NCBI RefSeq assembly: GCF_900142465.1
Contig: NZ_FRAX01000009.1
Location: 62,001-126,000, forward strand
Length of the DNA: 64,000 nt
Source: Fibrobacter sp. UWH6
GTDB taxonomy: Bacteria; Fibrobacterota; Fibrobacteria; Fibrobacterales; Fibrobacteraceae
Direction of reading: 5' to 3'
Under the pieces are notes generated by a model. It saw only the letters and a list, made by a program, of their open reading frames with translations. It searched no databases and was not told the DNA's origin. Each line of letters begins with the position of its first letter. Position 1 is the first letter of the stretch. Positions 37,501-64,000 of this stretch are shown in pieces. A program made the position numbers and the translations under genes.

Positions 37501-37960
37501 ATTCATGAGCGGCCATTACGGCATCGTACACGAACTGCATATAATCGCAAACACGGGAAGAATCAAATTCAGCAGTCTTTTCGCCATCCCTCTTGCTGGT
37601 TCGATTATAGTCGATGATTTGCTTCTTCAGCTTGTAAGCACTGGAAGATTCCGGAAAAATTCTGGACTTGATTACAATATTTCCGCCACTGGCAGCCTTG
37701 TAATAGGCATTCGCAAAATCAAAATGCTTCTTCCAATAGGGCACACTATTGCGACGGCCCGGCGGATCCAACTTATACGAATCCTTCTTCTTTTCGTCAG
37801 AGTCGAAAGTTCCATTTCCCGTGGTCAACGAATTGTCAGTCTTTTCTTCGGCAAACTGAACTCGAATCGCAAATACCTCCAAGGTATCTGCAGCAAAACT
37901 AAAAGACGCCTGGAACAAAACCAAGGCAAACAAAAGGCTAATCTTATAAAAAAAACTCAT
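34523..37960 (-). CDS. Degenerate M6 peptidase-like secreted protein with FG-GAP repeats and sorting tail
   Basis: I start at the ATG at 37960, behind GAGG; a GTG two codons earlier is possible. The product has 1145 residues with a signal peptide (ISLLFALVLFQASFSFA). Residues about 25-330 follow the M6 (immune inhibitor A) fold, but the zinc motif is lost: VNQIGRQLGMPDTYD stands where HEFGHxLGxPDxYD is expected (H to N271, E to Q272, H to R275), while LGYFDLMDFAGYN is kept. Beyond about residue 630 come FG-GAP-type calcium loops (DMDRDGVEEAIV, GDINGDGYPEIV, DVTGDDVPEILV). The last 85 residues (FMFPNPVRGGVAKARFE, then IELYDITGLCVF) are a sorting or FlgD-like tail. It probably binds rather than cuts. 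Confidence 0.88.
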   Translation of the reverse strand: MSFFYKISLLFALVLFQASFSFAADTLEVFAIRVQFAEEKTDNSLTTGNGTFDSDEKKKDSYKLDPPGRRNSVPYWKKHFDFANAYYKAASGGNIVIKSRIFPESSSAYKLKKQIIDYNRTSKRDGEKTAEFDSSRVCDYMQFVYDAVMAAHESSDSPFSIPLSKNPNTKRAFMIIHAGASRLMDGGTMGSNNADTPADFIDAFVSGEYWPFLSDTLANVALKADSSSKKSVVDGLALKGASIDTLRSIMVMSETASQDGLNWGVNGILVNQIGRQLGMPDTYDVVKGISRLGYFDLMDFAGYNAGNGFLPALPAAWERTYMGWSSVQEVRPSAGKKISVDVAAAGSGACSKSKSKNVCTEVLKVPLSASEYLLVENRQRSWNKDGEVSVVLGEPDESSDTTIRTVPVDSLDLVFQDSTCVKGECKVNKKKARGVILDVSSFDAGIPASGIAVWKVNEWFLRRNLEDGVANYWAGDEFRDHQFGLSLIEADGVLSIGKTFKNALGEDTYDYGSGADLLPHLRVADKSSKQKFDTVKTINPTGYANTMTTQGGYTGIKISVSVPEDFRKEKTANGLMGDSVLNFASTLITVTVSIDDGSIEDSKFPREVGLNGIVRGAVFVDNPEKSGEKIVVFGADNGSLQAFSALGDTLFDADTVVVKKQLTNKGTEKEIPLYRIGSNYGPLLGMASDGKYVYSLHEKHLVRTQFESESYVSETALDVDSVVAGPMVVGNELWYATRHQIRNVKIGDGKFSRGFDVKVTADGNITDMAFCGTDEDGNSKIAYVTDEGEVGFGSKVNSATYESEPAKVHGTEKFYRVSCTDMDRDGVEEAIVLGSRGTVSARKRNGKSVVWTKNYERGAAGSSGLSDETSGMALGDINGDGYPEIVFLGDNLVYALDRFGLPVSGFPVKISKGSPVYGFFSDPLLVDVTGDDVPEILVPNNDGLIYAYTGKAKRVSGQFPLAAGSFEYVDSLSELQPMSIYVTDAVGSSKSAGPELYAFHRSNVSAFRLQKAAEDAAGNAAAWTLPAGGNERTGYLDASKLKDVKASKSKDEITEFFMFPNPVRGGVAKARFEVGAEANSATIELYDITGLCVFKQKMSDVVAGRNQFENLDLKKLGSDVYTARLRVDFKSGKTKQKLYRVGVIR

Positions 37961-38020
37961 CTTCACAACCTCAATCTACAAAAATCAAAAACAGCCGCAC
38001 CGGAATCACAACCTAAAAAA

Positions 38021-48401: not shown

Positions 48402-50542
48402 TACTTATTGCTCCAAGGAATAGTCTTCACCATGGAAGACTGTTTAACATTCACGAAATAGTTGCCGTGAGCGACTTCACCCAAATCCATCACGTTAGAG
48501 CCAGCAGATACGTACTTAACGACGTTCTTTACGGTACGTCCAGCCATATCAACAACCTGCACGGTAACAAAGCCAGAATGCTTTGCAGTCATCACAAGCT
48601 TATTGCCGTTCATACGAGCGTTCATGCTCACGTTAGCCATGGTCTTAGGAGTGATACCTTCAATCATGGACAGGTTGCCAGCACCGATATTGATCATGAT
48701 TGTTTCGTCAATAGCTTCATAAGTTTCAGCTTCGGGGGCAACAGCGTGAATGGTAATGGTAGCATCGACGTTACCAGCCACCAGCATTTCACCGTCCTGA
48801 GTTGCATAACCTTCCGGAGTAATGGTATAGGTCACAGGAACCTTATGAGCTTCAACAGTAAACACCTGAGTCGTGGAACCCAATGCAACAGTCTGGTTCT
48901 TGAAATACTTGGTATTCAGGGAGTTCACATTCTTTGCATAGGTAAAGGTCACGGTAGTATCAAGAGCGCGATAACCGGGAACAGCAGCTGCAGTAGCGCG
49001 GATATGGGCAACACCGACACTCTTGAAGGAAGCGATCCAGACCTGCTGATTCTTGTAGGAATAGCAGTTTGCAGAAGTACAGGTCATCTTCTCAACAGAA
49101 ACCACATCCGGATTGTCAGAGGTGTAAGTAATGGGGCTACCTTCGATAGTAACAGTTTCGTTCATCTTCTGCTGCATCTTGGAATCACCGGAGAAGTTCT
49201 GGCAACCGCTACCACTCAGACGGCAGGTCACATTGGGCTGGGTAAAGGTCTGGTTCGGCATAGCGGTAATGTTCACCACAGTCTGAGAACCGTCGTTACC
49301 AGTCATAATTGCCACACCGGCACCATGAATCTTGATGGAACCAGCTTCGATAGTAGCAACAGATTCATCGCTAGAAGTATAAGTACAGGAAGCGCTAGCC
49401 TTGCCTTCAATGGAAGTTTCCATTTCAGAAGCAGAAGCGTGAGCGAAGGCGCAAGCACCAGTGTGCTTACCGGCAGTAATAGAGTCTGCCCAGGTGCCTG
49501 CTCTAGACTTAGAGGTAAGATAGTTCTTGACGATAGTGCCAGAAGTGGTGTAGCTAGCTTCATTCAAGGCAGCCTTGGAATTCAACACGGTGCTACCCTT
49601 GAACATGGCAGAAGCTTCAGGCTTATTGCCGACAGTTTCGTGACGCAGAGACCAGTTACAGTTGGAAATACCCTTACCATCCAGGTAGTCCAGCCATTCC
49701 TTAGAGCTGCCTTCGCTAATGCTACCGGCACCAGAAGCTTCGGTAGTACCCCATTCGGTAACAAACACGGCATTGTTGCTCAAGCAACCTTCAATGGCAT
49801 TCTTGAAAGCCCCCAAGGTATGTGTTGCTGCGTAGAAATGGAACACGTAGCCTACGTTGGTCTGGTTAACGCCACCGCAGCTACCCATCTGGGAGTAGAA
49901 GGGGGTGCCCACCAGGGCCAGGTTCGGGGAGCCATTTGTACGGATGGCGCTGATAACGGTGTTTGCATAGGAAGCAATTTCACCCATGCCATCATTAACA
50001 GGTTCGTTGAACACTTCCCAGATGATATTGGGAACGTTGGCATACTTTGCAGCCATACGGCCAAAGAAATCCGTTGCCAAAGCCTGTTCGCTTCTTGCGC
50101 GATGGCTATGCCAGTCAACGATGATGTAGATATCGTTTTCAATGGCGACCTTCACCATGTTGTCCAGCTTAGCTTCCAAGCCAGACGGATTGCTCTTATA
50201 GGATGCGGCAACCTTTTCGTCGCTATTGTTACTGCAGTCGCTTTCCTTATAGCAATCAATTGCCATGGCAAAACGGAAAACATCGATGCCAAGCTTTTCG
50301 GCAGCCCAGCTGATCACTTCGGAATTGTAATAGGGGGAGCCGGTAGCATCGGACCAGAACAGGCTCATACCGCGGAGGGTCACCTGCTTTCCGCTGGAAA
50401 TGCTAACAACCTTGCTACCACTGGTACCCAAAGCACCATAGGCAGAAACGGGACCGACACGGAGCGGCTTAACTCCATCGTAGACTCCTGCAGCAAAGGA
50501 AACTGCGCAGGACAAAAGTAGTGTCGACAATAACTTTTTCAT
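48401..50542 (-). CDS. Secreted GH5 cellulase with Ig-like region and sorting tail
   Basis: The 713-residue product has a signal peptide (LLSTLLLSCAVSFAAG). Residues about 30-335 form a GH5 endoglucanase: LRGMSLFWSD, IIVDWHSH, IIWEVFNEP with the acid/base E180, VFHFYAATH and VFVTEWGTTEASG with the nucleophile E263. Residues about 360-630 are Ig-like or bacterial-adhesin-like (TIEAGSIKIHGAGVAIMTGN). The tail (VQVVDMAGRTVKNVV, LGEVAHGNYFVNVKQ) matches the sorting tails of its neighbours. A Shine-Dalgarno GGAGAG precedes the ATG. It is the first gene of a two-gene operon with the GH8 enzyme. Confidence 0.94.
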   Translation of the reverse strand: MKKLLSTLLLSCAVSFAAGVYDGVKPLRVGPVSAYGALGTSGSKVVSISSGKQVTLRGMSLFWSDATGSPYYNSEVISWAAEKLGIDVFRFAMAIDCYKESDCSNNSDEKVAASYKSNPSGLEAKLDNMVKVAIENDIYIIVDWHSHRARSEQALATDFFGRMAAKYANVPNIIWEVFNEPVNDGMGEIASYANTVISAIRTNGSPNLALVGTPFYSQMGSCGGVNQTNVGYVFHFYAATHTLGAFKNAIEGCLSNNAVFVTEWGTTEASGAGSISEGSSKEWLDYLDGKGISNCNWSLRHETVGNKPEASAMFKGSTVLNSKAALNEASYTTSGTIVKNYLTSKSRAGTWADSITAGKHTGACAFAHASASEMETSIEGKASASCTYTSSDESVATIEAGSIKIHGAGVAIMTGNDGSQTVVNITAMPNQTFTQPNVTCRLSGSGCQNFSGDSKMQQKMNETVTIEGSPITYTSDNPDVVSVEKMTCTSANCYSYKNQQVWIASFKSVGVAHIRATAAAVPGYRALDTTVTFTYAKNVNSLNTKYFKNQTVALGSTTQVFTVEAHKVPVTYTITPEGYATQDGEMLVAGNVDATITIHAVAPEAETYEAIDETIMINIGAGNLSMIEGITPKTMANVSMNARMNGNKLVMTAKHSGFVTVQVVDMAGRTVKNVVKYVSAGSNVMDLGEVAHGNYFVNVKQSSMVKTIPWSNK

Positions 50543-50736: not shown

Positions 50737-52197
50737 CTACTTAACAAAACCGCCATTCAGCAACGTTGCAAACAAGTTCATCAAGATTTCCTTGAAGTAA
50801 GTACCAGTGTATCCCACCGGATTGTAGCCTGCCATTTCGTTGTTGAATCTAGCGTAGCAAGCATCCAGCCAGGGCTGATTTACACCCATACCCATCAAGC
50901 AGTAAGCACCGATAAAGTGGGTACCCTTAATAGAACTGGTAGAAAGTTCGCCAGTAAGATAGTTATAGGAGTAATCAGAAAGGGCGTTAGGATCGCCTGC
51001 AGTTGCAGTAGAGATGAAGGTAGACATCTTGGTCAAGATAGTCTGCGCTTCTGCACTCTGATTCCAGTAGTAATCCCAGGCAATACGCCAGGGAATACGC
51101 ACAGATTCCTTATCGAACAGCATATAGGACTTGGCGGCAGATCCATTCTTCGGGTCAGTAGCTTCTGCGGCTGCGTTAGACCAATCCGGGAACAGAGGGA
51201 TAGCGCCCTTATCCTGAACATCCATCATGTACTTGTAGTTTGCAGCCAGGATGTCCAACCATTTACCTTCGGGCTGAACGGCATCAAACAGGCGGATTGC
51301 AGCCGGGGAAAGGTAGCTCAGGTTATAGACGTCCTTGTTTGCCCAGGTGTCACCCGGACGGATCAACAGATTTTCGGGATTGATACCCTTGAGCTTAACG
51401 GCATCCAGCAAGACAAGAGCGTCAGCCAGATAGTATCCACCGCCCCACTTGCTTTCTGCAAGAATCAGAGAGGTAGCCACATCAAGGTCAGCATCCAGAG
51501 CGGCAGAGTTAGAAACGGTATTGCTGAAAGACTGCAGTTCCCAGGGCATCAAGCCAGCGGTATTGTAGTCACGGGCCACCACGTTGTAAGCCCACAGAGC
51601 GTTGTACAGGTCCTTATCGTTGTGAAGGACAGCGAGCAACATACCATAGCCGATACCTTCAGAAACGGTACAACCCAACTTACGACGGAGAGCCACCGTA
51701 AAGTTCACGCCATTCCAAGATTGCATATCGGTAAGTTCGCACTGTTCGCCCGTACCGCCATCCCAAATCACTCGGGCCGGATTCGGATGAGGGGCACCCA
51801 TCTTGGCAGTCATAATATACTGTCCCTGGGAACCGGTGAACATTTCGTAGTTGAGGGTAGAACCACCGGCAACTTCATCATTAAGATAAATAATCCAGCG
51901 CTTTTTCCAAGTTTCGTAGAACGCGTCGGAAACTGCGGGAGATGCTCCTGCAGGCAGTGCGACAGTAGAAACAGCAGCTGCGGCAGAAGATGCGGGCTGT
52001 TCTGGAGAGGACTCGCCACCTTCATTGCCTCCAACGGGAGAGCTAGTGGGGTCCATAGAACCCTGAGAGTCAGAAGAAACAATAACAGACGGATCATCCG
52101 GATTGACAACAGGATCGGAACCGGCAGAGGAATCATCACCACAAGCATATAAAGCAAAAGCTATAGGCAATGCAAGGAAAGCTTTCGAAATATTCAT
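50737..52197 (-). CDS. GH8 lipoprotein
   Basis: The ATG at 52197 follows GAGGTG; a GTG two codons earlier is possible. The 486-residue product has lipobox YAC (Cys19) then GDDSSAGSD, with a Ser/Pro-rich linker to about residue 85. The GH8 barrel has GCTVSEGIGYGMLLAV with the proton donor E180, AALDADLDVATSLILA and KESVRIPWRIAWDYYW, where Glu stands at the position usually held by the base Asp. That residue choice marks a GH8 subfamily different from the secreted GH8 upstream. It should be held on the cell surface. It has its own terminator and no operon partner. Confidence 0.92.
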   Translation of the reverse strand: MNISKAFLALPIAFALYACGDDSSAGSDPVVNPDDPSVIVSSDSQGSMDPTSSPVGGNEGGESSPEQPASSAAAAVSTVALPAGASPAVSDAFYETWKKRWIIYLNDEVAGGSTLNYEMFTGSQGQYIMTAKMGAPHPNPARVIWDGGTGEQCELTDMQSWNGVNFTVALRRKLGCTVSEGIGYGMLLAVLHNDKDLYNALWAYNVVARDYNTAGLMPWELQSFSNTVSNSAALDADLDVATSLILAESKWGGGYYLADALVLLDAVKLKGINPENLLIRPGDTWANKDVYNLSYLSPAAIRLFDAVQPEGKWLDILAANYKYMMDVQDKGAIPLFPDWSNAAAEATDPKNGSAAKSYMLFDKESVRIPWRIAWDYYWNQSAEAQTILTKMSTFISTATAGDPNALSDYSYNYLTGELSTSSIKGTHFIGAYCLMGMGVNQPWLDACYARFNNEMAGYNPVGYTGTYFKEILMNLFATLLNGGFVK

Positions 52198-52232
52198 GAG
52201 CACCTCATTTTTTGAGTAGTCCTAATATATAA

Positions 52233-52268: not shown

Positions 52269-52289
52269 TCTAGAATCTTGTGAGTTAAA

Positions 52290-53300
52290 TTACTTCACGA
52301 GGATCTTCTGGTTCATGACAGCGGACTTGCCAGCAGCGCGAACCATATAGACACCAGCCTGAACCTTGGAGAGGTCCATGGTCTTCACGGAGGAAGCGGT
52401 CATAACAACCTGACCCTGGAGGTTAACGATTTCAGCCTTAGCAACGGTCACACCGAAGGAGAGGGTGCGGCCAGCGAGGGTTGCCTTAACTGCGCTTGCA
52501 GCCTTAACAGTGTTGATAGCGGCGTCGCCGGAGCATACAGCAGCGCCAGAACCGTTGGACTTGCAAGTGAATGCAGGTTCAGCAGCAGCAGACTTTGCAC
52601 CAGAGCAGGTACCCTTAGGACCGACTTCGAAAATACGGAGCTGACCCTGAGCGTCAGAAGCCTGACCATCCAGCTTGAACTTAACAGCGGTAGCTGCAGC
52701 GAAAGCGTCAGCGCAACCGCCCGGCAGCTTTTTATCTGCCCAAGTGGGCTGCTTGAAGTCTGCGATAGCCTTGTCAGCCTTGGTCGGAGTAGCAGCCTTG
52801 GTGAGGGTCACGCTACAAGAAGCGTCGCCTGCATCCGGAGTTGCAACTTCGAGAGTCACAGCGAGGTCAGAAGTATAGGTAGCGCAGAGACCACCAGCAG
52901 CGGTGATGTCCATCGGATCCTGGCTAGCACCAACAGTGTTGAAGCCGAAGCCAACGAAGTTGTACGGATATTCAGCGGTCTGACCGGTAGTGGTCGGGTC
53001 GACGAGAACGTACTTGATGGTTGCATAACCGAGGTTTTCAATCATCGGCTGAACGAGGGATTCGTACTGGTCAGCTTCGTACGGATAGATAGCGTAGGAA
53101 CCACCCTTGTCGTTCTTACGGTCATCATAGTCGTACCAGTAACCCATAGTGGTTTCTTCGCAAACCTGGTATTCGTACATGCAATCTCCACCAGTGTTAA
53201 CCTGCTGGTTGGTGCCATCGAACCAAATTTCGAGGTTAACGGCAGCGGATGCCATTGCAGCCATGGAAACTGCAGAAAGTGCAATAAGTTTCTTATTCAT
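52290..53300 (-). CDS. Secreted carbohydrate-binding-type protein with sorting tail
   Basis: The 336-residue product has a signal peptide (LIALSAVSMAAMASA). Residues about 20-235 look like a galactose-binding beta-sandwich of the type found in Fibrobacter surface proteins: IWFDGTN, GYWYDYDDRKNDKGGSYAIY, PMDITAAGGLCATYTSDLAV, FKQPTWADKKLPGGC. Six of its eight cysteines are in this part. The last 65 residues are a short sorting tail (AEIVNLQGQVVMTASS, DLSKVQAGVYMV). No catalytic domain is present. The codon choice is very narrow (Lys AAG, Ala GCT/GCA, Thr ACC), as in strongly expressed genes. It is transcribed alone and may be an abundant cellulose-binding surface protein. Confidence 0.82.
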   Translation of the reverse strand: MNKKLIALSAVSMAAMASAAVNLEIWFDGTNQQVNTGGDCMYEYQVCEETTMGYWYDYDDRKNDKGGSYAIYPYEADQYESLVQPMIENLGYATIKYVLVDPTTTGQTAEYPYNFVGFGFNTVGASQDPMDITAAGGLCATYTSDLAVTLEVATPDAGDASCSVTLTKAATPTKADKAIADFKQPTWADKKLPGGCADAFAAATAVKFKLDGQASDAQGQLRIFEVGPKGTCSGAKSAAAEPAFTCKSNGSGAAVCSGDAAINTVKAASAVKATLAGRTLSFGVTVAKAEIVNLQGQVVMTASSVKTMDLSKVQAGVYMVRAAGKSAVMNQKILVK

Positions 53301-53383: not shown

Positions 53384-53419
53384 AGTGTAAAAAAGCGTAT
53401 GTTAGTATTTTTTTACACT
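53384..53419 (-). terminator. AT-rich hairpin at the end of the six-gene operon
   Basis: AGTGTAAAAAA pairs with TTTTTTTACACT across 13 bases, overlapping the stop of the GH18-like gene. The A/T arms make it a weak terminator or an mRNA-end stabiliser. Confidence 0.4.
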
Positions 53420-54464
53420 ACTTTTTCTTCTTCGGGGCGTAATTCACTTCCGGACGGAGAACCAGACCGGCAGTCACCATCAAAGACACGATGTTTTCGT
53501 CATGATCCTGACTAATATCGTACATGGCGACACCAGCCAAGCTTTCATCCTTAACCATCATGCTAATAGCTTTCACAGAAGGAATACCCATGAAGACAAT
53601 GGTTTCAGAGTTGCTTACAGCCACTTCAGAGGAAGATTCTTCATCAAAGTTCACCTTGTAGTCCGGAGCTTCGAACTTCTTCATCAGTTCCTTATAGGCC
53701 AAGTAACCTTCGTTACCGCTACCTACACCCTGATGAGAAGAACCCAGGCCGCTTGCACCGGCAAAGGACTTACCATACATGGGAACAATGGGAACGATCT
53801 TGTCGCTGGAGACACCCTTGCCAGACAGAGCGCGAACAGCGGATTCCACGTCCTGCTTAGAAAGGTTGGGCTTGACGGACTCTGCAGATTCGTCCATCTG
53901 GTCGCCTACAGACAGTGTGACATAGTCAGCCTGGCTGATTGCATCGGAATAGGCATCCATGGTTGCAGCATAGGCCATCACGGAAACAGACTTGGAACCC
54001 AGCTTATCCTTGAGAGCGGAAACCAGCTTGCCAATGTCGGCGGCATCATCGCCAGTTGCATTGGTCCAGTCCAGTTCCACACCACCAAGATTATACTTTT
54101 CGACCCATTCCATAGCAGCATCGCAGAAAGCGGAAAGCTTGGAATCGTCACCGGCGATAGCCTTCAAATTGCCTTCGTTTTCGAAGCCACCGATGGATAC
54201 CACCAGGGAAACGCCATTTTCAGAAGAAAGCTTGGCCAACTCTTCGAAGTTAGCGGCATCGCTTTCGTCTGCGTAGGCAATGCTACCGTCTTCAGCCGGA
54301 GCCAAAGAGGCATAATGGATATCTGTCACGAACTGGTAACGAACATCCTTCGGGAAGAACTGGCTATACTGAGCCCAGGACGGGTAGTATCCAACGACCT
54401 TAAAAGGAGCCGCAACGGCAGCAGCAACAAGAGAAGCTAAAGCGATAAAAGAAAGCTTTTTCAT
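53418..54464 (-). CDS. GH18-fold secreted protein lacking the catalytic Glu
   Basis: The 348-residue product has a signal peptide (LSFIALASLVAAAVAA) and a GH18 chitinase-like barrel: FKVVGYYPSWAQYSQF, GVSLVVSIGGFENEGN, and the position of the DGxDxDWE motif reads LGGVELDWTNA. The first Asp is Gly127, the second Glu130, and the catalytic Glu is Thr134, so hydrolysis is unlikely. VSVMAYAATMDAYS and VPIVPMYGKSFAG complete the fold. The tail is Lys-rich (PKKKK). It is probably a sugar-binding protein. It is the last gene of a six-gene operon with three outer-membrane barrels. Confidence 0.87.
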   Translation of the reverse strand: MKKLSFIALASLVAAAVAAPFKVVGYYPSWAQYSQFFPKDVRYQFVTDIHYASLAPAEDGSIAYADESDAANFEELAKLSSENGVSLVVSIGGFENEGNLKAIAGDDSKLSAFCDAAMEWVEKYNLGGVELDWTNATGDDAADIGKLVSALKDKLGSKSVSVMAYAATMDAYSDAISQADYVTLSVGDQMDESAESVKPNLSKQDVESAVRALSGKGVSSDKIVPIVPMYGKSFAGASGLGSSHQGVGSGNEGYLAYKELMKKFEAPDYKVNFDEESSSEVAVSNSETIVFMGIPSVKAISMMVKDESLAGVAMYDISQDHDENIVSLMVTAGLVLRPEVNYAPKKKK

Positions 54465-54474
54465 AAAAACCTCG

Positions 54475-55569
54475 CTACGGATTACCGATTAAATAAACTT
54501 CACCGTCAACTTCGGACTTGCAGTAAAGATCAGCGGAGAAATCCCAAACTTCACCAGTGTTGCCAACAGGTGCAGCATTGGGGCTCATGGCCTGAGTAGA
54601 CGTCTTCTTCTTCTGGTAAATACTGTCTCTCGGAGCACGGTCTACATAATCCTTAACTTCTTTAGTCTCAATGGTGTAGATAGTATCCTTCGGAACGATA
54701 GAAGAATCGCCTTCTGCAAGATGCTTCTGATAGGAGGAAAGCAACATTGTGGTATCCTTGCCGTCAGCATCCACATAACTAATCTTAGTTGCGGAGTGAG
54801 TAGTATCGGCTCGTTCGGTTACGCTCCAAGTAGTGTCGTAAACCGTTACAGTGGTATCATAGCGGGTAACCGTAACGTCCAGCTGCTTGATGACAGCGTT
54901 ATCGCCTGCACGGCAGAAACGGTAGGCACGACCTTCATAACGGCCAGCACGAATGTACTGATACTTGATCAAGTTGGAATCAACAGGAACAGACTTCAGG
55001 AAAGCCAGGTCTGCAGAAGCCTTGTTACCGTAAATGTGGTACGGATTCAAGGCCAGGCGGTACTGCATCGCGGTCTGACCGAAGATGTTGATGGAAGAGT
55101 CCGGATTGTACATACCGTTCAGGAATGCGGCAGAACCAGGCCAGTAACTTTCGCTAAGACCAGCATAGTTAAGGAAGATTTCCTTTACTGCGGTAGAATC
55201 ATCAAAATAGGCAGTCCATTCGGCATCGTCGTTGAGGATGATACCGGTGACATAAGTCTTCTTGACCTGCTGTTCTGCCTTGGTCTTGGCAGAGGCGAGC
55301 TTTTGTTCATAGGTCTTATCGGAAGAGTCTGCCTCGATAGCAGCCTGAGTCAGCTGCTCGGTAATCAGATTACGAAGAACAGCATTGGAATCAGCCACGG
55401 CAGACAGGGCCTGATAGGTTCCCAGGTCCGGATTGACTCTTGCATATTCAGACACACTAAAATCAGAGGGCCAGTTTTCGGCGTCGCTATTGCTAATGCT
55501 ATCTGCAGAGCAGGCAACCAAAGCGATTGCTGCAGCGAGGCCCATGCCATACTTAAACATCTTATTCAT
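54475..55569 (-). CDS. Lipoprotein of unknown function in the barrel operon
   Basis: The 364-residue product has a strong site GGAGGTTATC before the ATG and a lipobox VAC (Cys20). The N-terminal half has helices (LRNLITEQLTQAAIEADSSD, YEQKLASAKTKAEQQVKKTY); the middle has YHIYGNKASADLAFLKS; the C-terminal half is Thr/Asp-rich with repeats of DTTVTVYDTTWSVTERADTT type, likely beta strands. No family is recognised. It lies 10 bases after one barrel gene and 11 bases before the GH18-like gene, so it is very probably a subunit of the same surface complex. Confidence 0.75.
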   Translation of the reverse strand: MNKMFKYGMGLAAAIALVACSADSISNSDAENWPSDFSVSEYARVNPDLGTYQALSAVADSNAVLRNLITEQLTQAAIEADSSDKTYEQKLASAKTKAEQQVKKTYVTGIILNDDAEWTAYFDDSTAVKEIFLNYAGLSESYWPGSAAFLNGMYNPDSSINIFGQTAMQYRLALNPYHIYGNKASADLAFLKSVPVDSNLIKYQYIRAGRYEGRAYRFCRAGDNAVIKQLDVTVTRYDTTVTVYDTTWSVTERADTTHSATKISYVDADGKDTTMLLSSYQKHLAEGDSSIVPKDTIYTIETKEVKDYVDRAPRDSIYQKKKTSTQAMSPNAAPVGNTGEVWDFSADLYCKSEVDGEVYLIGNP

Positions 55570-55578
55570 GATAACCTC

Positions 55579-57759
55579 CTAGAACAGAACCGTAATGTTA
55601 CCGGCAATCAAGAGCTTGCTCAGGCTCAATTCGCTAGGCTGAGCAAAAGCGACTCCGTTTTCATCAACGGCAATGCCCGTGTAGTTAACAGTGTTGGTCA
55701 GGAGACCACCCTGGAGATCCAGGACCGCACCGGGGCCCAACTTAATCTGCAAGCCACCCATGGCCAGCATTTCATCAATGTCATTAACAATGACTGTTTC
55801 AGACAGAGGCAGACCGCTACCAAATTCCTTAGTCAGCATCTGCATGCCGCCGAGGATAGTGAAGGGGCCCCAAACGTCTGCGGTAAGGCCAGCAACAACG
55901 CGGGAAGTCTTACGCTTCAGGTAGTTGCTTTCTTCTGCGGATTCGAAGGATCCCTGCAGAATGAGTCGGCGGTTCAGACCGAGGAACGGAGCCACATTCA
56001 GGCCAAGACCTGCACCGATAGTGGTATAGTCGTTATCGACATCGCTGCTATGGCTATACTGAGAGAAACGACCATTAATGGTAATGGCATCGTTCCAAGC
56101 CACGTTAGCGTTCAGGGCGAAACCTACACGGTCGGGAGTTGCCAGACCCATGGGCATAGCCATGTTGACAGAAGGATCGACAAATTCAGAATAGCTAGCG
56201 TATTCCAACTGCTTGCTAGCAACAGCTTCGTAACCATTCTTGTAGAAGTGGCCCAGTCTGTAGTTGTTAGCCAGACGACCGAATGCATAGTAGGAGTCAA
56301 CAGAGGAACCATTCAAGATCGGGGTTTCAGCGTCTTCAGACTTAGTCATCAAGTTCTGCTGCTGCAAAACGTTGACATTGTAAATGCTGAAGTACATGTT
56401 TTCAAGGCTACCGGAACGGAAGCGGCTGACCACATCAGCGTCGGCGCCAGAAATGTTAGCATCGCCATTCAGGATCGTTGCACTGCCAACATAGTAGGCA
56501 GAAGCAGCCTGTTCAGACCAGAACTTTTCGTCGTTCTTGACGATGGTTGCCTTAACATCAAAGTTAACACCAGCAATGTCACCGTTTACATAGGGAGACA
56601 CATGCAGAGCCATGCCAGAAACGTTTTCAATTTCTTCGTCGCTCCAGTGCTTACCGAGAGTCATACCGTCGGCCACATAGAACTTAGTCTGGAAAACAGA
56701 GTCCTTGCCGTTGTCGTCAAGAGCCTTGCCGTTTTCATCGAACACGGGGTAATCGTAGCTCTCAACCTTATAGTTGTGGATGGTATCGAGAACCAGGGAG
56801 TCGCGGGACAAGGTCCACTTGGAGCCACCGATTTCAGCATCGATACCGGCGCGGATCTTACCGTCCATGATCATGTCCTTGGTGTCATAACCAATAACAC
56901 CGGTGTAGACCATGTTGTCTTCGTAGTACAGGTTCTTGATAGCAGCATCTTCCTTGGAACGGGAAGACTTCTGACGGTCAAAGGTGTAGACGAAGTTACC
57001 ACCGATGGTTGCGCCAAAGGCTTCAACGCCCAGGTTTGCGCCATAGAGGTAGCGGTCGCTCCAGTCAAAGTCGAAGAAGACTTCATCGGCCTTCTTGGCG
57101 ATATTGCGGATACGGGCACCAGTCATCTGGACGTAAAGGTTGGACAGGGGGCCCATATCGAAGCTATTGTACTTGAAGTTCAAGCCCTGCAGCAAACGAT
57201 TGGAAGAGGTATCCAAGTTGCGCAAAGCAAGAGCTTCCTGACGCTTGGCAAAGAAGATTTCCGGTTCCTGCAGAATTTCAGCCTGGGGCACGTAAATGGT
57301 GAGAGGAGTATAACCAACTCTCATGTAGCCAAGATTGAAGTCGACGTGCTTGTCGAGAATCTTGCCATCGTAGCTAAACCAGTGACCGATCACAGGGTTG
57401 ATCGGTTCGTCGTAAGCGCTCTGCCAATCCTTGTGGAGACGGAGTTCTACTCGAGCTTCAGTTTCTGCACTGGGACGAGCGTTAACCTTGAGGTTTACGT
57501 CGGTGTAGGCCTGGTTTTCACGCTGGTCAGCTTCGTTGTAAAGCTGATCGGAACTCATGGTGGAAGAAAGAACCCCACCCTTAGCCGTACCGCCAATGCG
57601 AAGACCCAAGACTGAAGAATTCATAGAATCAAGAGTATTGAGGAGGCTCTGCTGACGTTCGACCAAGGTCGAATCTGCAGCGGCAGCGTATACTGCGGCT
57701 CCGCAAAGAAGAAGCGAGATTCTGGAAGTCATCTTAAACATATCCTTATTCATTTTCAT
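55579..57759 (-). CDS. Large outer-membrane beta-barrel protein (726 aa)
   Basis: The site GGGAGG precedes the ATG. A signal peptide (SRISLLLCGAAVYAAAA) leads to a helical segment (STLVERQQSLLNTLDSMN) and then alternating amphipathic strands to the end, closing with GNITVLF, the terminal-Phe pattern of outer-membrane barrels. It is a paralogue of the next protein: both share a YTPLTIYVP/YSPLTLFAP block, EPEIFFAKRQEALAL, LLQGLNFKY and AMPMGLATPDRVGFALN. The number of strands cannot be counted safely by eye. It may be a porin or a binding barrel for sugars; no SusC features (plug, TonB box) are seen. Confidence 0.83.
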   Translation of the reverse strand: MKMNKDMFKMTSRISLLLCGAAVYAAAADSTLVERQQSLLNTLDSMNSSVLGLRIGGTAKGGVLSSTMSSDQLYNEADQRENQAYTDVNLKVNARPSAETEARVELRLHKDWQSAYDEPINPVIGHWFSYDGKILDKHVDFNLGYMRVGYTPLTIYVPQAEILQEPEIFFAKRQEALALRNLDTSSNRLLQGLNFKYNSFDMGPLSNLYVQMTGARIRNIAKKADEVFFDFDWSDRYLYGANLGVEAFGATIGGNFVYTFDRQKSSRSKEDAAIKNLYYEDNMVYTGVIGYDTKDMIMDGKIRAGIDAEIGGSKWTLSRDSLVLDTIHNYKVESYDYPVFDENGKALDDNGKDSVFQTKFYVADGMTLGKHWSDEEIENVSGMALHVSPYVNGDIAGVNFDVKATIVKNDEKFWSEQAASAYYVGSATILNGDANISGADADVVSRFRSGSLENMYFSIYNVNVLQQQNLMTKSEDAETPILNGSSVDSYYAFGRLANNYRLGHFYKNGYEAVASKQLEYASYSEFVDPSVNMAMPMGLATPDRVGFALNANVAWNDAITINGRFSQYSHSSDVDNDYTTIGAGLGLNVAPFLGLNRRLILQGSFESAEESNYLKRKTSRVVAGLTADVWGPFTILGGMQMLTKEFGSGLPLSETVIVNDIDEMLAMGGLQIKLGPGAVLDLQGGLLTNTVNYTGIAVDENGVAFAQPSELSLSKLLIAGNITVLF

Positions 57760-57771
57760 CTTGCGCCTCCC

Positions 57772-60078
57772 TTAGAAATTCACGTTCAAGATGGCCTGAA
57801 CAACAGCCTGGGAGAATTTATGAGTGTATTCGGCAAGGTTCTGGGTATTGCCATCGACATCTGTAACCGTTACATCGGCATAGTTAGGCACATTGGATCC
57901 AGCACCTTCTGTGGTATTATATGTGTTTTCAACATTAATCATACCATAGTTCAGCTCGAGATAGACACCTTCTGCGACAGTGTAGTCGAGACCCACCATC
58001 CACTGCATCTGCTTACCCTTCAGCAACGGAGTCTCGTAACCCGGAGCAACGTTGAGTATCGGACTAGAAGATACAGCATCAAATGTGGTGTTAATCATCT
58101 GGAGACCAGCGTTAATACCGAGACGCGGCATGTACTGAACGTAGAGGCCTGCGTTGATGAAGTCCATGCTCAGTTCACCCTTGTCAGCGAAATAGGGCTT
58201 GAATTCATCAGTGAGTTCCTGAGTCTTTACAGCATGCTTGTAGCTGCCGGACAGTTCAAGAGGCAGAGAGAAGCCAAGCATCTTGAACACATCCACCTTA
58301 AGACCTGCACCGAATTCCTGGAATTCAGCTTCCTTCATGAAGACGTTGTCGCTCTTCTTCTGCTTCAGCATAGAGAAGATGGCGTTTGCTTCGGCGAAAT
58401 CCTGGAAGCCAAACTTCATGTCGATGTTGAAACCACTGCGGTTCGGAGTAGCAAAGCCATTGGGCAAGCTCATCTGAACAGACTTATCGAGCATGAAGCT
58501 CATCAAAGCCAATTCCCTGCGGGTGTAAACAGAAGTGCTATAGGCATTTCTCTGGATCGGAGCGATGTTGTAGCTGTTGGTCTGACCCTTAATGGTCGGG
58601 TCATCGGTATTAGCCAACTGGGTTCCCACCGGAGTAAACTTCGGATCGTAGTAGTACAGAGAACTGAAGGTGGAGTAGAGCGGAGAGTTAACACCGTAGC
58701 GGCTAACGTTACCGTCCTTATCGGAATTCAGAGTACGGGTAGCGAAGAACTGCGGAGACTGAGCAAGGTTGTTGAACCAGTTGCTGTCATTCATCACGTA
58801 GTTAGCTGCCAACTGGATGTCCAGACCGACAGGGAGCTTGTAACCAGCATTGAAGGAAATATTCAATGCAGAACCGTTGTCATCTTCGGTAACTTCGTTA
58901 TAGGCGACTACATTGCCGAATTCATCGAAAGCAGGCTCAAAGTGGCGCTGTTCATCGCTGGACATGGCGTATTCACCCATCACATCCAAGGTCAGGCTCT
59001 TGTTGCCGAGAATGCCAGCAATGTCGGCACCGGCGCGAGCAGAAATGATCGAGGTGTTCTGCGGATCAGTTTCATACGGGTTGATGGGCTGATACACAGT
59101 ATAGCCACCATCTTCGAAAGTACTGGGGTTAAGAATCGGGCCTTCCAATTCACCAGTTTCGGTGTTGTAGTAGCTCAGCTGACCATTGTAGATGACTTCC
59201 TGATACTGAGTACGGTAGGTATTGGTGAAGCTTGCGCTATCATCAAAGACCAACATACCAGTAAAGCCGAGGAAGACGTTCTTGTCTACAGGCAGGTATT
59301 CGACGTTTGCACTAAGCAACCACTTATCCATATTGGATGCCATGGAGGAACCCGGATAAATAGCACCGTCATTCAGCAAGCTGTTATAGCCGTTAGCAAG
59401 AAGGTTGCCGTTGGAACCGGAGAAGTCCAGGAGCTGGACGCGGCGAACGCGGGCAAAAATACCTTCTGCACGGATTTCACCAGCCATGCCACCGAAATCG
59501 TGGCGGAACTGGAGGTTCACACCCTGCAGGTTGCGCTGGTTCCCAACGATCATGGCTTCTTGCATAGCCATTTCACGGGCGCGAGCAAAGATCAGCGGTT
59601 CATAGAGAATGCCATCAAGACCGGTGGGGGCGAAAAGGGTCAGGGGGCTGTACTGCTGACGGAAGTCACCGACAATCCAATACAGGTCCTTACCGACATT
59701 GCCTTCCATATTCAGCCAGTTTGCAGTCAGGGACTTTGCGGAAGTAGCAAAGTAGTTCTGCATGCCTGCTTCCATACGGAGTGTTGCGTTAAAGCGGACA
59801 GCTTCGTAAGGACGGAAGTGGAAATCCAAGTCTGCAGAAACAAACTGGGATCTTTCGGTGTTGGGCATCTTGTTGAGCTTGCTGTCTTCCTGGTCAGAAG
59901 ACATGTAAGCGTTATTGAGCACGCCAGTAATGCGGCCACCAACTTCAAAACCGCGCTTGGAAGAAAGGGAATCTTCCTTAGCCTGGAGCTGTCGATCCAG
60001 TTCAGCTTCGGACACTGCAGAAGCGACAGAGGCGGCAGAAGCTACAAAAAGCAGGGATACTAAAACTTTATGCATCAT
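57772..60078 (-). CDS. Large outer-membrane beta-barrel protein (768 aa), paralogue of its neighbour
   Basis: The 768-residue product has a signal peptide (VLVSLLFVASAASVASA), a helical start (AELDRQLQAKEDSLSSK), the GFEVGGRITGVLNNAYMSSD opening strands and a long strand-rich body closing with VQAILNVNF. The shared blocks with the 726-residue protein (YSPLTLFAP, EPLIFARAREMAM, LQGVNLQF, SLPNGFATPNRSGFNID) show a tandem duplication, with the identity low enough to suggest old divergence. It lies 19 bases after the 845-residue barrel gene and 13 bases before its paralogue. Confidence 0.83.
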   Translation of the reverse strand: MMHKVLVSLLFVASAASVASAVSEAELDRQLQAKEDSLSSKRGFEVGGRITGVLNNAYMSSDQEDSKLNKMPNTERSQFVSADLDFHFRPYEAVRFNATLRMEAGMQNYFATSAKSLTANWLNMEGNVGKDLYWIVGDFRQQYSPLTLFAPTGLDGILYEPLIFARAREMAMQEAMIVGNQRNLQGVNLQFRHDFGGMAGEIRAEGIFARVRRVQLLDFSGSNGNLLANGYNSLLNDGAIYPGSSMASNMDKWLLSANVEYLPVDKNVFLGFTGMLVFDDSASFTNTYRTQYQEVIYNGQLSYYNTETGELEGPILNPSTFEDGGYTVYQPINPYETDPQNTSIISARAGADIAGILGNKSLTLDVMGEYAMSSDEQRHFEPAFDEFGNVVAYNEVTEDDNGSALNISFNAGYKLPVGLDIQLAANYVMNDSNWFNNLAQSPQFFATRTLNSDKDGNVSRYGVNSPLYSTFSSLYYYDPKFTPVGTQLANTDDPTIKGQTNSYNIAPIQRNAYSTSVYTRRELALMSFMLDKSVQMSLPNGFATPNRSGFNIDMKFGFQDFAEANAIFSMLKQKKSDNVFMKEAEFQEFGAGLKVDVFKMLGFSLPLELSGSYKHAVKTQELTDEFKPYFADKGELSMDFINAGLYVQYMPRLGINAGLQMINTTFDAVSSSPILNVAPGYETPLLKGKQMQWMVGLDYTVAEGVYLELNYGMINVENTYNTTEGAGSNVPNYADVTVTDVDGNTQNLAEYTHKFSQAVVQAILNVNF

Positions 60079-60096
60079 AGTTATACCTTAATCCCC

Positions 60097-62634
60097 TTAG
60101 AACCAGACCTTGGTTTCAGCCGTAATGAAGTGGCCGGTCCAGTCGTTTTCTGAAATGTAATTGTCTGTATGAGTTGCATACTTGTAACGGAGGTGGAGAC
60201 CTGCGCGAGGAGAGAAGTCCCAGTCGACGCCAAGACCGATTGCAGTCTGGTAGTAGTCCACAGGAGCCTTCTTATAGGTAGCCTGGCTAGTCGGGATCAG
60301 GAGACCGTACGGGCCACTAGCATTGGTAACCTTAGAGGAAACTGACACATCTTCTACCTGGTAGCCGTATTCAGACTTCCAGTTTTCAAAGCCGAGGTGA
60401 CCAACCAAGTGGATAGTCGGAGTCAGGGCAAAGGTAGGTTCGAACAAGCCGTAGAAGCTCCACAGAAGCATGTCGCTCTGAGATTCGCTATAGGCGATAG
60501 GAGCGAAAGTCTTGGACACACCGGAAATGGAAGCGTAGCCGCTCATCATCAGGTTGCGATCGGTACCGAACCAGTGGCCAATGTCATAACCACCGTCGAT
60601 GGAGAGGTAGGAAGACCACTTGATATGAGACGGAACTTCTTCCTTCTTCATCTGGTCAGCATTTTCGTAAGCTACGAAAGATTCCCACAGTTCCCAGGTA
60701 CCACCATAGAGACCGCCACGCTGGCGTTCCATCTTACGCTGGTTGGTGAGAACACCTGCACGGTTGTAGTAACCATTCTTTGCAATTGCGTTACCGGAGT
60801 CAGCCCAGAACAAGGCGTTAAACTTGGTCCAGGAGTTGGTGCTTTCCCACATGTTACGGCCATTCAGGCGGTAGTTGAAGAGGATGACGTCATCACCGGC
60901 TTCAATCTGGCGATGCTGGGCGTACTGAACACCGAGACGGCCACGGTTGAATTCCGGTTCGAACTTGAAGTTAAGACCAGCCATGTTGGGGCCATAACGC
61001 ATAGCACCACCATTCAGGTAGAATTCGTCCTTGCGCCAGCTGCGGAGACGAGACGGATCGGTAATGCCGTAGGGAGAGAAGAAATCCTTTCCGAAGTAGA
61101 CGGCTTCAACAGTAGTGGGCAGCCAATCAAGATGCTTGTCCTGAATCTTGACATAAACACCCAGAGACGGAGCGGAAACACTGGAAGTCGTTGCATCGCG
61201 AGTGTAAGCTCTCTTGCTAGTGGTGTCCACATCTTGGAAGGTAGTGGAATCATCCCAGCTAATGGCCACATCAGCCATCAAGTAGAACTTGGGAACGATG
61301 TTACCCTTGATGTCCAAGGAAACGATCTGATTGTTTTCAAAGTGCGGGTCACCTTCAAAGGCGTTCTTTGTCCAGGGGCCGGCAAATTCATCTTCGTCAA
61401 TAAGACCTTCATCGTAGAAGACACCCAGGTAGTTGGCACCGAGAGTCATACCGTCGAAGAGCTTGTTCTTTGCCAGACGGCCGTGAATCACGTCGCCACG
61501 GAAGTCGTAGTTACCGGACATTTCCAGTTCGCTGGGCTGACCACCGTAGAGGCGGAGACCGTCACGAGTACCGGCGTCCATATCCTTGGGCTGAGAAATC
61601 ATGGCCTGTGCGGTCATGCCAAAGGGCATGTTGTACACGTTCATGAACACGCCACCGAAAGAACGGTTGGTCCAGAATGCACGACCACCTTCCTTGACGG
61701 GCTTAAAGGACTTTTCCTTATAGTAGGTGCTGACAGTCTTTTCTTCTTCGAAGGTTTCGTACTGCCATGCAAAGCGGGGCATGGTTTCGCGTTCCCACAT
61801 GGTAAGGGGAGATGCGCAAGCCCAGATAACACCACCTGCGGTCACGTAGGCGCCAAACACAGAAGAACGAATATCGATACCGAAGTTCATTTCTTCTTCA
61901 ACGCCAGCTGCAGCGTAGTCGGTGTTGTGGTCAAACATCACACGAGTCCAGTTGTAGCTGGGATTGTTGTTGGGTTTTTCGGCCATATAGTTTGTATACA
62001 AACCGGTCAAGTCGAAGGGGAAAGTCATATTGGTCCACAAGGTCATATAGGAGTTGGGCATCAACACCATATTCATCTTGAGGGTAGCGTCAACAGCGGT
62101 ACGAGCCTTGTCGTCGCCGTACACCGGAGCGATTTCGGTGTAGTCGAAATTCTTGACGCGGAAGGCCATGTAACCGGAGACAGCCAGCGGAACATCGTCC
62201 TTACCCATGAGGGTAGATTCCATGTCGTTGGCCAGGGTATCCAGGTTTTCCTGGATGGCGGCAACGCGCTGTTCGGCGGTCAGGTCCTTAGGAATATAGA
62301 CCTTGGCTTCGGGAGCAACCTTTGCGGGAGCCTTTTCAACATTGGCACCGCCGAGAGGCTGAACTTCTTCGGCAGCGGCCACTTCTTCGGCAGGAGCGGC
62401 AGGTTCAACCTCAGTAGCCGGTTCGGCTTCGGAAGCATAAGAATCGGAGCCATAGGTATCAGAAGAGTATGCATCGTAGAAAGATTCGTTGGAAGAGCTT
62501 TCTTCAGAAACGCTTTCTTCTGCGGGAGCTTCTACAGCGGAAGCTTCGGAACCGTAATCGGAATAATCATCCTCTTGAGCAAGAGCAAGAGAGGAGCAAA
62601 GCAGGGTTGTTGCTAATAGAGATAATTTGCGCAT
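60097..62634 (-). CDS. Large outer-membrane beta-barrel protein with acidic N-terminus (845 aa)
   Basis: A signal peptide (LSLLATTLLCSSLALA) is followed by an acidic Ser/Ala/Glu-rich tract (about 20-95, EEVAAAEEVQ and the like), a short coiled coil (TAEQRVAAIQENLDTLANDM) as found in trimeric porin leaders, and a body of amphipathic strands rich in Trp and Tyr, ending HFITAETKVWF. It is less like the other two barrels. The many aromatic residues would suit sugar binding, and no catalytic site is recognised. It lies 16 bases from the upstream gene and 19 bases from the next. Confidence 0.82.
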   Translation of the reverse strand: MRKLSLLATTLLCSSLALAQEDDYSDYGSEASAVEAPAEESVSEESSSNESFYDAYSSDTYGSDSYASEAEPATEVEPAAPAEEVAAAEEVQPLGGANVEKAPAKVAPEAKVYIPKDLTAEQRVAAIQENLDTLANDMESTLMGKDDVPLAVSGYMAFRVKNFDYTEIAPVYGDDKARTAVDATLKMNMVLMPNSYMTLWTNMTFPFDLTGLYTNYMAEKPNNNPSYNWTRVMFDHNTDYAAAGVEEEMNFGIDIRSSVFGAYVTAGGVIWACASPLTMWERETMPRFAWQYETFEEEKTVSTYYKEKSFKPVKEGGRAFWTNRSFGGVFMNVYNMPFGMTAQAMISQPKDMDAGTRDGLRLYGGQPSELEMSGNYDFRGDVIHGRLAKNKLFDGMTLGANYLGVFYDEGLIDEDEFAGPWTKNAFEGDPHFENNQIVSLDIKGNIVPKFYLMADVAISWDDSTTFQDVDTTSKRAYTRDATTSSVSAPSLGVYVKIQDKHLDWLPTTVEAVYFGKDFFSPYGITDPSRLRSWRKDEFYLNGGAMRYGPNMAGLNFKFEPEFNRGRLGVQYAQHRQIEAGDDVILFNYRLNGRNMWESTNSWTKFNALFWADSGNAIAKNGYYNRAGVLTNQRKMERQRGGLYGGTWELWESFVAYENADQMKKEEVPSHIKWSSYLSIDGGYDIGHWFGTDRNLMMSGYASISGVSKTFAPIAYSESQSDMLLWSFYGLFEPTFALTPTIHLVGHLGFENWKSEYGYQVEDVSVSSKVTNASGPYGLLIPTSQATYKKAPVDYYQTAIGLGVDWDFSPRAGLHLRYKYATHTDNYISENDWTGHFITAETKVWF

Positions 62635-62649
62635 ATAATCCTAGTCCTC

Positions 62650-63390
62650 TTAGATCTCATTGCGGAACGGATAGTAGGCAGGACCCTCGTAAGCCTTGCC
62701 ATGCTTCTTAATAACAATATCGTCCATCCAGACCTTGAAGGATTCGTTTTCGTCCTTACGAACTTCGAGGCGGAAGCCCTTGAAATTAGACCAGTTGAAG
62801 GGGAGCATCACTTCGCGAGTATTCTTGGCATCCCAGTACACACCAGTGGTACCGAAAAGCTTCAGAGGAATGCTAAAGCGGGTCCATTCGGTGGTAATTT
62901 CACCGAGACCCTTGGAACGGAGCTTGACCTGCAGGGATTCACCGTTACTCTTAACGCCATCATCCACAAGCACGAACAGAGCGTTTTCACCACCCTGGGC
63001 ACCCTTGATCCAGAACTCCAGGACGCCGTCTTCCAGGTACGGAGCCAGGTCTACGGAACCGGCAATACAGATTGCGATACCGGAGTAGTCGCTAGCGATC
63101 AATTCCATTTCCATGGAAAGAGCGCCTTCCATGGCGTACTTATCCGTGAGGACCGGTTCGGGGTTTTCACGGGGATACTGGTAGGTATATCCACCACCAC
63201 GGGGAATTGCTTCACGCATGATGACGGTTACAACATCCTTATCCGGGCGGAAGGACTTGCCTTCTTTAAGGACAAAACGACCAGCATCGCGATCGCGATA
63301 GCTGCTAAAGGAAGCCGCATCAGCTAGGGAAACGGCAAGAAGCATGCCCAAGGCACACTTCAGTAACGACGAGATTCTCATATATTTCAT
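62650..63390 (-). CDS. Secreted protein with carbohydrate-binding-like domain, first gene of the six-gene operon
   Basis: The 246-residue product has a signal peptide (LKCALGMLLAVSLADA). Its body is one beta-sandwich like CBM11-type modules: MEMELIASDYSGIAICIAGS, YLEDGVLEFWIKGAQGGENA, LFVLVDDGVKSNG, WTRFSIPLKLFG, and the final FRLEVRKDENESFKVWMDDI. The ATG at 63381 is a possible alternative start with a better spaced AGGA. It begins an operon whose later genes encode three barrels, a lipoprotein and a GH18-fold protein. Its likely job is to bind cellulose or oligosaccharides at the outer membrane. Confidence 0.82.
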   Translation of the reverse strand: MKYMRISSLLKCALGMLLAVSLADAASFSSYRDRDAGRFVLKEGKSFRPDKDVVTVIMREAIPRGGGYTYQYPRENPEPVLTDKYAMEGALSMEMELIASDYSGIAICIAGSVDLAPYLEDGVLEFWIKGAQGGENALFVLVDDGVKSNGESLQVKLRSKGLGEITTEWTRFSIPLKLFGTTGVYWDAKNTREVMLPFNWSNFKGFRLEVRKDENESFKVWMDDIVIKKHGKAYEGPAYYPFRNEI

Positions 63391-63601
63391 ATCCTAAGGA
63401 GTCTCCAAAAACGGACGGTGCTCAAATATAATCAAATTTGAATACAAGCCCAAAAATAACATTTTTATATGCACTACGAATACCAGTTTCTCAAAAAAAC
63501 ATGTTTTCCGATGTAAACAAAAAAAACATTTTATCAATATGACCCTCAACGAATTAAATTTATGTTTACAATACCGACTTTTACACTACGGGAAAGGTTT
63601 T
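63391..63601. promoter_or_regulatory. Divergent control region, six-gene operon / GH5 lipoprotein
   Basis: This AT-rich gap of 211 bases holds a palindrome AAAACATGTTTT (63496-63507), the 14-mer ATGTAAACAAAAAA (63511-63524, 91 bases before the GH5 start) and TATGTTTACAATA (63561-63573), an inverted copy of the box. Similar boxes lie in front of the GH5-GH8 operon, so a shared regulator is possible. Confidence 0.5.
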
Positions 63602-64000
63602 ATGAAACGAATTCTGTCCACTCTCGCCATTGTATCTTCTGCCCTAATTTGGCAGGCTTGTTCCGACGATCCGGCCAGTTCCAGCGAGGAACCGGGCTCC
63701 TCCGCGTCTGCACTTCCCACCAGTAGCGCAGGCATCGATGAGGACGAACCCACAGGTCAGTCCTCGCTTCCGGATTACAGCCGCGCCATCGCCGTCAACA
63801 AGATGCTGGGACACGGCATCAACTTCGGTAACTCCTGGGATTCCGGCATCGATCCCCAGAAAAAGTGCGAAGAAGGCAAGGAAAACGACCGGTGCTACAC
63901 AGAAGGCAAGGTCTACGACTACCTGGACGAAAAGTGGAACAACCCCATTGATGACGAATGGTTCAAGATTGCCAAGGACGCAGGTTTCCAGTCTATCCGT
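63602..64000 (+). CDS. GH5 cellulase lipoprotein (partial, C-terminus off window)
   Basis: The frame is open from the ATG at 63602, behind GGGAAAGG, to the window edge (133 residues). A lipoprotein signal (STLAIVSSALIWQAC, Cys20) is followed by SDDPASSSEEPGSSASA, a Ser-rich linker. The start of a GH5 barrel follows: AVNKMLGHGINFGNSWDSG, then NPIDDEWFKIAKDAGFQSIR, a pattern close to GH5_4-type endoglucanases. The catalytic Glu residues lie beyond the edge. An insert with two cysteines (KKCEEGKENDRCYTEGK) is unusual between the first strand and helix. It is divergent from the six-gene barrel operon. Confidence 0.9.
   Translation, partial: MKRILSTLAIVSSALIWQACSDDPASSSEEPGSSASALPTSSAGIDEDEPTGQSSLPDYSRAIAVNKMLGHGINFGNSWDSGIDPQKKCEEGKENDRCYTEGKVYDYLDEKWNNPIDDEWFKIAKDAGFQSIR

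Follow-up and report, generated by a model that had tools for sequence, protein, structure and literature searches.

Six open reading frames, all on the minus strand, run from position 63390 down to position 53418 of the window (the whole 64,000-nucleotide stretch of Fibrobacter sp. UWH6 DNA that was analysed), where a preliminary description made from the sequence alone had placed a six-gene operon. The genes and the neighbouring features are the following.

62650–63390, minus strand: gene 1, CBM30-only secreted protein of 246 aa (Pfam CBM30), orthologue of S85 Fisuc_1525/FSU_2007
60097–62634, minus strand: gene 2, Bar1, large outer-membrane β-barrel of 845 aa (AlphaFold) with a variable low-complexity N-terminus
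57772–60078, minus strand: gene 3, Bar2, large outer-membrane β-barrel of 768 aa (AlphaFold)
55579–57759, minus strand: gene 4, Bar3, Bar2 paralogue of 726 aa (profile-profile comparison)
54475–55569, minus strand: gene 5, lipoprotein of 364 aa with the lipobox LVAC
53418–54464, minus strand: gene 6, GH18-fold protein without the catalytic Glu (Pfam GH18), orthologue of S85 Fisuc_1530/FSU_2012
63391–63538, no strand assigned: AT-rich intergenic region separating the operon from the divergent GH5 cellulase gene; presumed from its position only to hold the operon promoter
63539–64000, plus strand: divergent GH5 cellulase gene, running past the window (Pfam Cellulase, E=8e-38 on the full gene, L168:1540-2817)
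52290–53300, minus strand: secreted protein with a T9SS tail (NCBIfam TIGR04183), context
50737–52203, minus strand: GH8 glucanase with a lipobox-like signal (Pfam GH8, E=2.5e-29), context
48401–50542, minus strand: GH5 cellulase with a T9SS tail (Pfam Cellulase, E=1e-41; TIGR04183), context

The bases between consecutive operon genes, in order from gene 1 to gene 6, number 15, 18, 12, 9 and 10. The tight spacing is as previously described; the gap sizes given then (16, 19, 13, 10 and 11) are each one too high. All six genes start with ATG, and most are preceded by a purine-rich, Shine-Dalgarno-like stretch. The GH18-like gene is followed by 117 bases before the next gene downstream, that of the T9SS-tail protein, and the six genes therefore form one close-packed unit. 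The T9SS-tail protein gene probably lies outside the operon; a strong terminator-like hairpin is located 3' of it, at 52270–52234. Cellulase genes flank the operon, as had been pointed out, with the divergent GH5 gene on one side and GH8, GH5 and GH8 genes beyond the T9SS-tail protein on the other. A consensus promoter and terminator scan yielded no more sites than shuffled sequences (9 versus 11.3 for promoters). Because sites were not in excess, the scan is uninformative about internal promoters, either for or against them.

Gene order was compared in 80 loci obtained by scanning the named genomes with the CBM30-like protein. The order CBM30-Bar1-Bar2-Bar3-GH18 is maintained on a single strand in 69 of these, so the operon is not a chance arrangement; the preliminary description had asked whether the order is kept in Fibrobacterota relatives, and it is. 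Ten of the remaining 11 loci end at contig ends, and in one (L067) Bar1 and Bar2 form a single ORF. In 20 loci from relatives the six-gene order and strand are kept in Fibrobacteraceae wherever the contig permits. Two loci of one distant genus (L048 and L049) carry only the front part of the operon, plus other GH18 genes. Order and tight spacing are fixed in all uninterrupted Fibrobacteraceae/Fibrimonas loci, and the median gaps across loci are 9, 12 and 15 bases; F. intestinalis ATCC 43854, termite Fibrimonas and a Fibrobacterales isolate are represented. Among the six products, conservation is highest for the CBM30-only protein, with 69–94% identity across Fibrobacteraceae. Between Bar3 and GH18, 87 loci have a lipobox-bearing ORF that is highly variable in length and sequence. 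The fused ORF (L067:10721-15628) was not used as evidence because the last Bar1 strand is missing at the junction and the fusion could stem from the assembly. Genome G085, possibly from the same organism, has a comparable open frame of 1638 aa.

None of the three barrel proteins matches a Pfam family above cut-off. Sequence homology to general porins or TonB receptors was not detected above cut-off, matches to porin families (OMP_b-brl, Porin_4) being sub-threshold or confined to few members, and a profile search against the PDB identified no sequence relative. Judged from sequence, and within the Pfam, NCBIfam and PDB searches of this analysis, the three proteins belong to families without a description. 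Homology between Bar2 and Bar3 runs the length of the two proteins (profile-profile probability 100%, E=2e-81), whereas Bar1 has no relationship to this pair that is detectable by profile (probability 5% against Bar2). AlphaFold models of Bar1 and Bar2 were built from deep alignments. The Bar2 model (pLDDT 88.4, pTM 0.87) comprises ~22 long strands, the first barrel strand beginning at residue 44, and has no N-terminal plug. The Bar1 model is fair (pLDDT 74.3, pTM 0.73) and comprises ~24–26 strands; strand numbers are our own count of the listed structural elements. The two predicted barrels, together with the paralogy of Bar3 to Bar2, bear out the earlier proposal of three large outer-membrane barrels, none of them SusC/SusD or a TonB-dependent receptor. 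Clear homology to general porins, named at the time as a result that would refute the proposal, is absent above cut-off.

Two non-strand segments of Bar2, residues 142–181 and 431–546, have mean top-residue frequencies of 0.61 and 0.57, respectively, values that equal or exceed that of the strands (0.52) and exceed that of the other loops (0.34). It is inferred that these segments may close or line the pore. The Bar1 protein of the window contains an acidic Ser/Tyr/Ala-rich low-complexity stretch of ~100 residues (within residues 20–130) that most relatives do not possess.

The gene 1 product matches Pfam CBM30 with an E value of 1.1e-15 (58 bits against a cut-off of 27) and the CBM30-type modules of PDB entries 1wmx and 2c24 with E=1e-10, consistent with its first description as a carbohydrate-binding-like secreted protein. 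The lipoprotein evolves fast, spans ~208–404 aa in relatives and matches no Pfam family. Residues 22–320 of the gene 6 product correspond to a GH18 TIM-barrel domain (Pfam GH18, E=7e-35), with matches to PDB chitinases down to E=7e-48. Active GH18 enzymes contain the sequence DGxDxDWE (the DxxDxDxE motif), whereas the window protein has GVELDWT, without the catalytic Glu, in agreement with the description of this protein as catalytically dead. The catalytic Glu is absent from 87 of the 95 GH18 homologues in the loci. The eight homologues that retain it all come from loci of one distant genus, in which they probably represent a different gene. These observations suggest that one of the ‘chitinases’ counted in Fibrobacter genomes has no enzymatic activity, a point of relevance to how chitin or peptidoglycan turnover was interpreted earlier.

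Profile searches located Bar1 and Bar2 phylum-wide, far beyond Fibrobacteraceae. In distant genomes, the product encoded after Bar1-Bar2 is in most cases not Bar3 but a ~1050-aa protein of the CBM30-CBM30-CBM11-GH51 type, which is 40–47% identical to Cel51A, encoded elsewhere in the genome of the window (L166). A few lineages have a shorter partner, without the GH51 portion. Cel51A is the major Fibrobacter outer-membrane endoglucanase and occurs in all 40 strains examined (PMC6291624). Cel51A (EG2/CelF, Fisuc_3111) has a CBM30 module in common with the operon. In distant Fibrobacterota its orthologues follow Bar1-Bar2 as the third gene, whereas in Fibrobacter it is encoded elsewhere and the operon contains the CBM30-only protein instead. 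By reading of their sequences, many of the distant Cel51-type partners start with a lipobox-like signal, as in surface lipoproteins.

The distant form has the features of a cellodextrin utilisation locus: among 23 genomes, a Cel51-type or CBM30 partner is encoded throughout, an ABC importer or its binding protein lies directly beside Bar1-Bar2-partner in 16, and GH94 cellobiose phosphorylase genes are directly downstream in six. The adjacent importer is of the oligopeptide type in most lineages (SBP_bac_5, two permeases and two ATPases) and of the sugar type in one genus, and several times it is co-directional with Bar1 and within ~40–130 bases of it. Only 2–5 SBP_bac_5 genes were counted in each genome checked, so that adjacency by chance is unlikely (a few per cent expected within 10 kb). 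A GH1 gene, recognized by sequence motifs and not by profile, precedes two loci of the genus with the sugar-type importer, and a giant GH9 cellulase adjoins several distant loci. GH94 alone does not track the barrels, as it is also found in barrel-negative genomes. Two small genomes, G003 and G006 (L158 and L159), encode a CBM30-CBM30-CBM11 partner without GH51, still adjacent to an oligopeptide-type importer or binding protein; on this account the cargo may differ between lineages.

Co-occurrence was assessed in 50 non-Fibrobacteraceae genomes. A CBM30/Cel51 match is present in 31 of 31 barrel-positive genomes and in 1 of 19 barrel-negative genomes, not counting a weak GH51-only match in one further barrel-negative genome. 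The Fisher P value is 1e-12, or 6e-8 with one genome per genus; both are indicative only, because the genomes are not independent samples. A midpoint-rooted Bar1 tree separates CBM30-only-linked from Cel51-linked clades with support of 1.0, and genome G077 carries both kinds of Bar1-Bar2 system. The Fibrobacter operon is therefore one of two old paralogous forms. In the CBM30 domain tree, support for grouping the operon protein with the first Cel51 CBM30, the barrel-linked one, is only modest (0.83 and 0.67), so that the tree suggests but does not establish co-evolution of CBM30 and barrels. Loci of the genus of G077 (L160, L162 and others) also have a giant GH9 protein of ~1640 aa next door.

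The S85 genome paper lists Fisuc_1523, just before the operon, as a GH5 cellulase, Fisuc_1525/FSU_2007 as a CBM30-only protein, and Fisuc_1530/FSU_2012 as a GH18 protein with the characterised activity ‘cellulose binding’ (PMC3079729); cellulose binding by the latter is also given elsewhere (PMC6851124). The numbering matches the conserved order, from which, and not from the S85 sequence, the S85 form of the operon is inferred to be Fisuc_1525–1530. The orthologue of the last operon gene is thus a F. succinogenes cellulose-binding protein listed as a chitinase or CBP. Earlier reports treat Fisuc_1530 alone, as a chitinase, whereas in this analysis it belongs to a fixed six-gene set, and its family lacks the catalytic glutamate. 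Neither a description of the operon nor, in main texts, any mention of Fisuc_1526–1529 was found in the literature searched. The preliminary description had proposed looking for the proteins in cellulose-bound membrane fractions, and the published data go part of the way: two of the six S85 products were recovered in envelope or extracellular fractions, and one of them is the reported cellulose-binding protein. Fisuc_1530 was detected in the outer membrane and at almost six times that level in the extracellular medium, and Fisuc_1525 uniquely in the medium (PMC4668043); another study found Fisuc_1525 in the envelope on glucose and cellulose alike (PMC4619616). The expected up-regulation on cellulose was not borne out for Fisuc_1530, expression of which is above the 90th percentile and stable (PMC6204037) and the protein level of which is 1.30-fold lower on cellulose (PMC6851124).

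We interpret the operon as encoding an outer-membrane complex for the capture and uptake of cellulose chains and cellodextrins, with a probability of roughly 60%; uptake is inferred and transport has not been demonstrated. A wider reading, in which the operon encodes some kind of surface complex dedicated to cellulose or cellodextrins, is considerably more secure and is regarded as highly probable. Assembly of all six into one complex, the barrels acting as channels, and a cargo of cellodextrin or a loosened chain end are likewise inferences. The strongest argument for uptake is the location of distant Bar1-Bar2-Cel51 loci beside ABC importers and GH94. The Fibrobacter operon itself is not beside an importer or GH94. 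Of the original proposal of a surface machine that holds cellulose or moves cellodextrins, the holding part is partly shown, through the binding reported for the S85 GH18 orthologue, and the moving part is inferred.

In the proposed mechanism, the CBM30-only and dead GH18-fold proteins, helped by the lipoprotein, would hold β-1,4-glucan chains at the cell surface; this binding is reported for the S85 GH18 orthologue and inferred for the other two. Bar1, Bar2 and Bar3 would anchor the surface proteins and, by inference, form a channel that admits cellodextrins or loosened chain ends to the periplasm, where ABC importers and cellodextrin phosphorylase would take over. The sister form across the phylum combines Bar1-Bar2 with a surface Cel51A-type endoglucanase, often in one locus with importer and phosphorylase, and the Fibrobacter form has the CBM30-only partner, an extra barrel, the lipoprotein and the pseudo-chitinase, with Cel51A kept elsewhere. 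There is no proof that the GH18 and CBM30 proteins stay attached to the barrels, since in one study the former was mostly, and the latter only, in the medium. Two further points weigh against uptake: barrels of this size without a plug would require some means of closure, and the GH18 gene is not cellulose-induced, its product being if anything lower on cellulose.

The alternative that retains most weight, although we consider it unlikely, is that the operon serves adhesion only, with the barrels as anchors displaying cellulose-binding proteins and soluble sugars entering through other porins. Cell attachment is required for cellulolysis (PMC3079729), the S85 GH18 orthologue is a reported cellulose-binding protein, stable expression of its gene fits an adhesion system, and the Fibrobacter operon contains no transporter gene. 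However, three large barrels exceed the needs of an anchor, distant relatives of these barrels are encoded with ABC importers and GH94, and fibro-slime, OmpA, TPR and pilin proteins have been held responsible for adhesion in F. succinogenes.

Secretion or assembly of the surface partners (CBM30, GH18 and Cel51 proteins) by the barrels is improbable, even though these partners are encoded in the same operon as the barrels and the best structural neighbours include chaperone-usher pores, with a Z score of ~14.8 over ~350 residues. The structural matches consist only of large barrels (ushers, OccK channels, AlgE, SusC-like proteins and siderophore receptors) in a narrow Z band, in which porins, AlgE, SusC-like and siderophore barrels follow the ushers closely. 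With ~10% sequence identity the usher match is probably an effect of barrel size, and no single known barrel family stands out; fold searches of this kind cannot separate import from secretion barrels. In addition, no chaperone, pilin or periplasmic secretion gene was recognized in the loci read, and importers repeatedly adjoin the barrel loci. Uptake of another β-1,4-glycan, such as chitin or peptidoglycan oligosaccharides, is very improbable: the GH18 fold, a chitinase/peptidoglycan link suggested in the literature (PMC6851124) and the GH51-lacking partners of G003 and G006 speak for it, but the GH18 protein lacks the catalytic acid in operon orthologues and is reported to bind cellulose in S85, the partners elsewhere are Cel51A-type endoglucanase, GH94 and GH9, and cellulose and the soluble products derived from it are the only growth substrates of F. 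succinogenes (PMC3079729).

The operon, read as a cellulose capture and uptake complex, resembles the SusC/SusD loci of Bacteroidota in that a large outer-membrane barrel and surface glycan-binding proteins are encoded near glycoside hydrolases, and the distant Bar1-Bar2 form also sits with genes for inner-membrane import and phosphorolysis. Unlike SusC/SusD, the barrels have no TonB plug (PF07715 and PF00593 are unmatched in Bar1–3) and no detectable sequence homology, SusD is missing, the partners are CBM30/CBM11/GH51 proteins and the pseudo-GH18, and the adjacent import system is an ABC transporter. The genome of the window encodes only two TonB-dependent receptors, and no SusD (PF07980) was found in the whole genome, whereas a Bacteroides control genome was positive. 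The operon is thus similar in role to the Bacteroides SusCD system but is not one by the features tested, its barrels belonging to unrelated and unnamed families. LamB and chitoporin, which are among the structural matches, are also outer-membrane barrels and serve oligosaccharides. Such sugar porins have 16 strands and ~420 residues, and are smaller than Bar1/Bar2 with ~22–26 strands, in barrels of 700–850 residues; no sequence homology between them was found.

The degradation of crystalline cellulose without cellulosomes and the entry of cellodextrins in Fibrobacter have been stated to be open questions (PMC6851124, PMC3079729); the cellodextrin transport mechanism of F. succinogenes is given as unknown, with no MalA-like receptor identified (PMC6851124). 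The uptake step is still missing from models of cellulose use by these main rumen fibre digesters. The present analysis puts names to six proteins of a single conserved unit and, by way of distant relatives, connects them with cellodextrin import and phosphorolysis. We put forward only tentatively the more specific possibility that Bar1/Bar2 are plugless, TonB-independent, very large importers, so far seen in Fibrobacterota, that take in cellodextrins or entire loosened cellulose chains while working in a fixed complex with a surface protein that binds or cuts β-1,4-glucan. If this were true, Fibrobacterota would possess their own polysaccharide-uptake system parallel to Sus.

The small secreted protein at 52290–53300 has no domain besides its T9SS tail, and a close relative carries three copies of it in tandem (L033:15204-18658). 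A T9SS tail is also present on a 1147-aa FG-GAP protein that lies next to a sulfatase-modifying-factor-like protein with an FGE-sulfatase domain (33591–37966 of the window).
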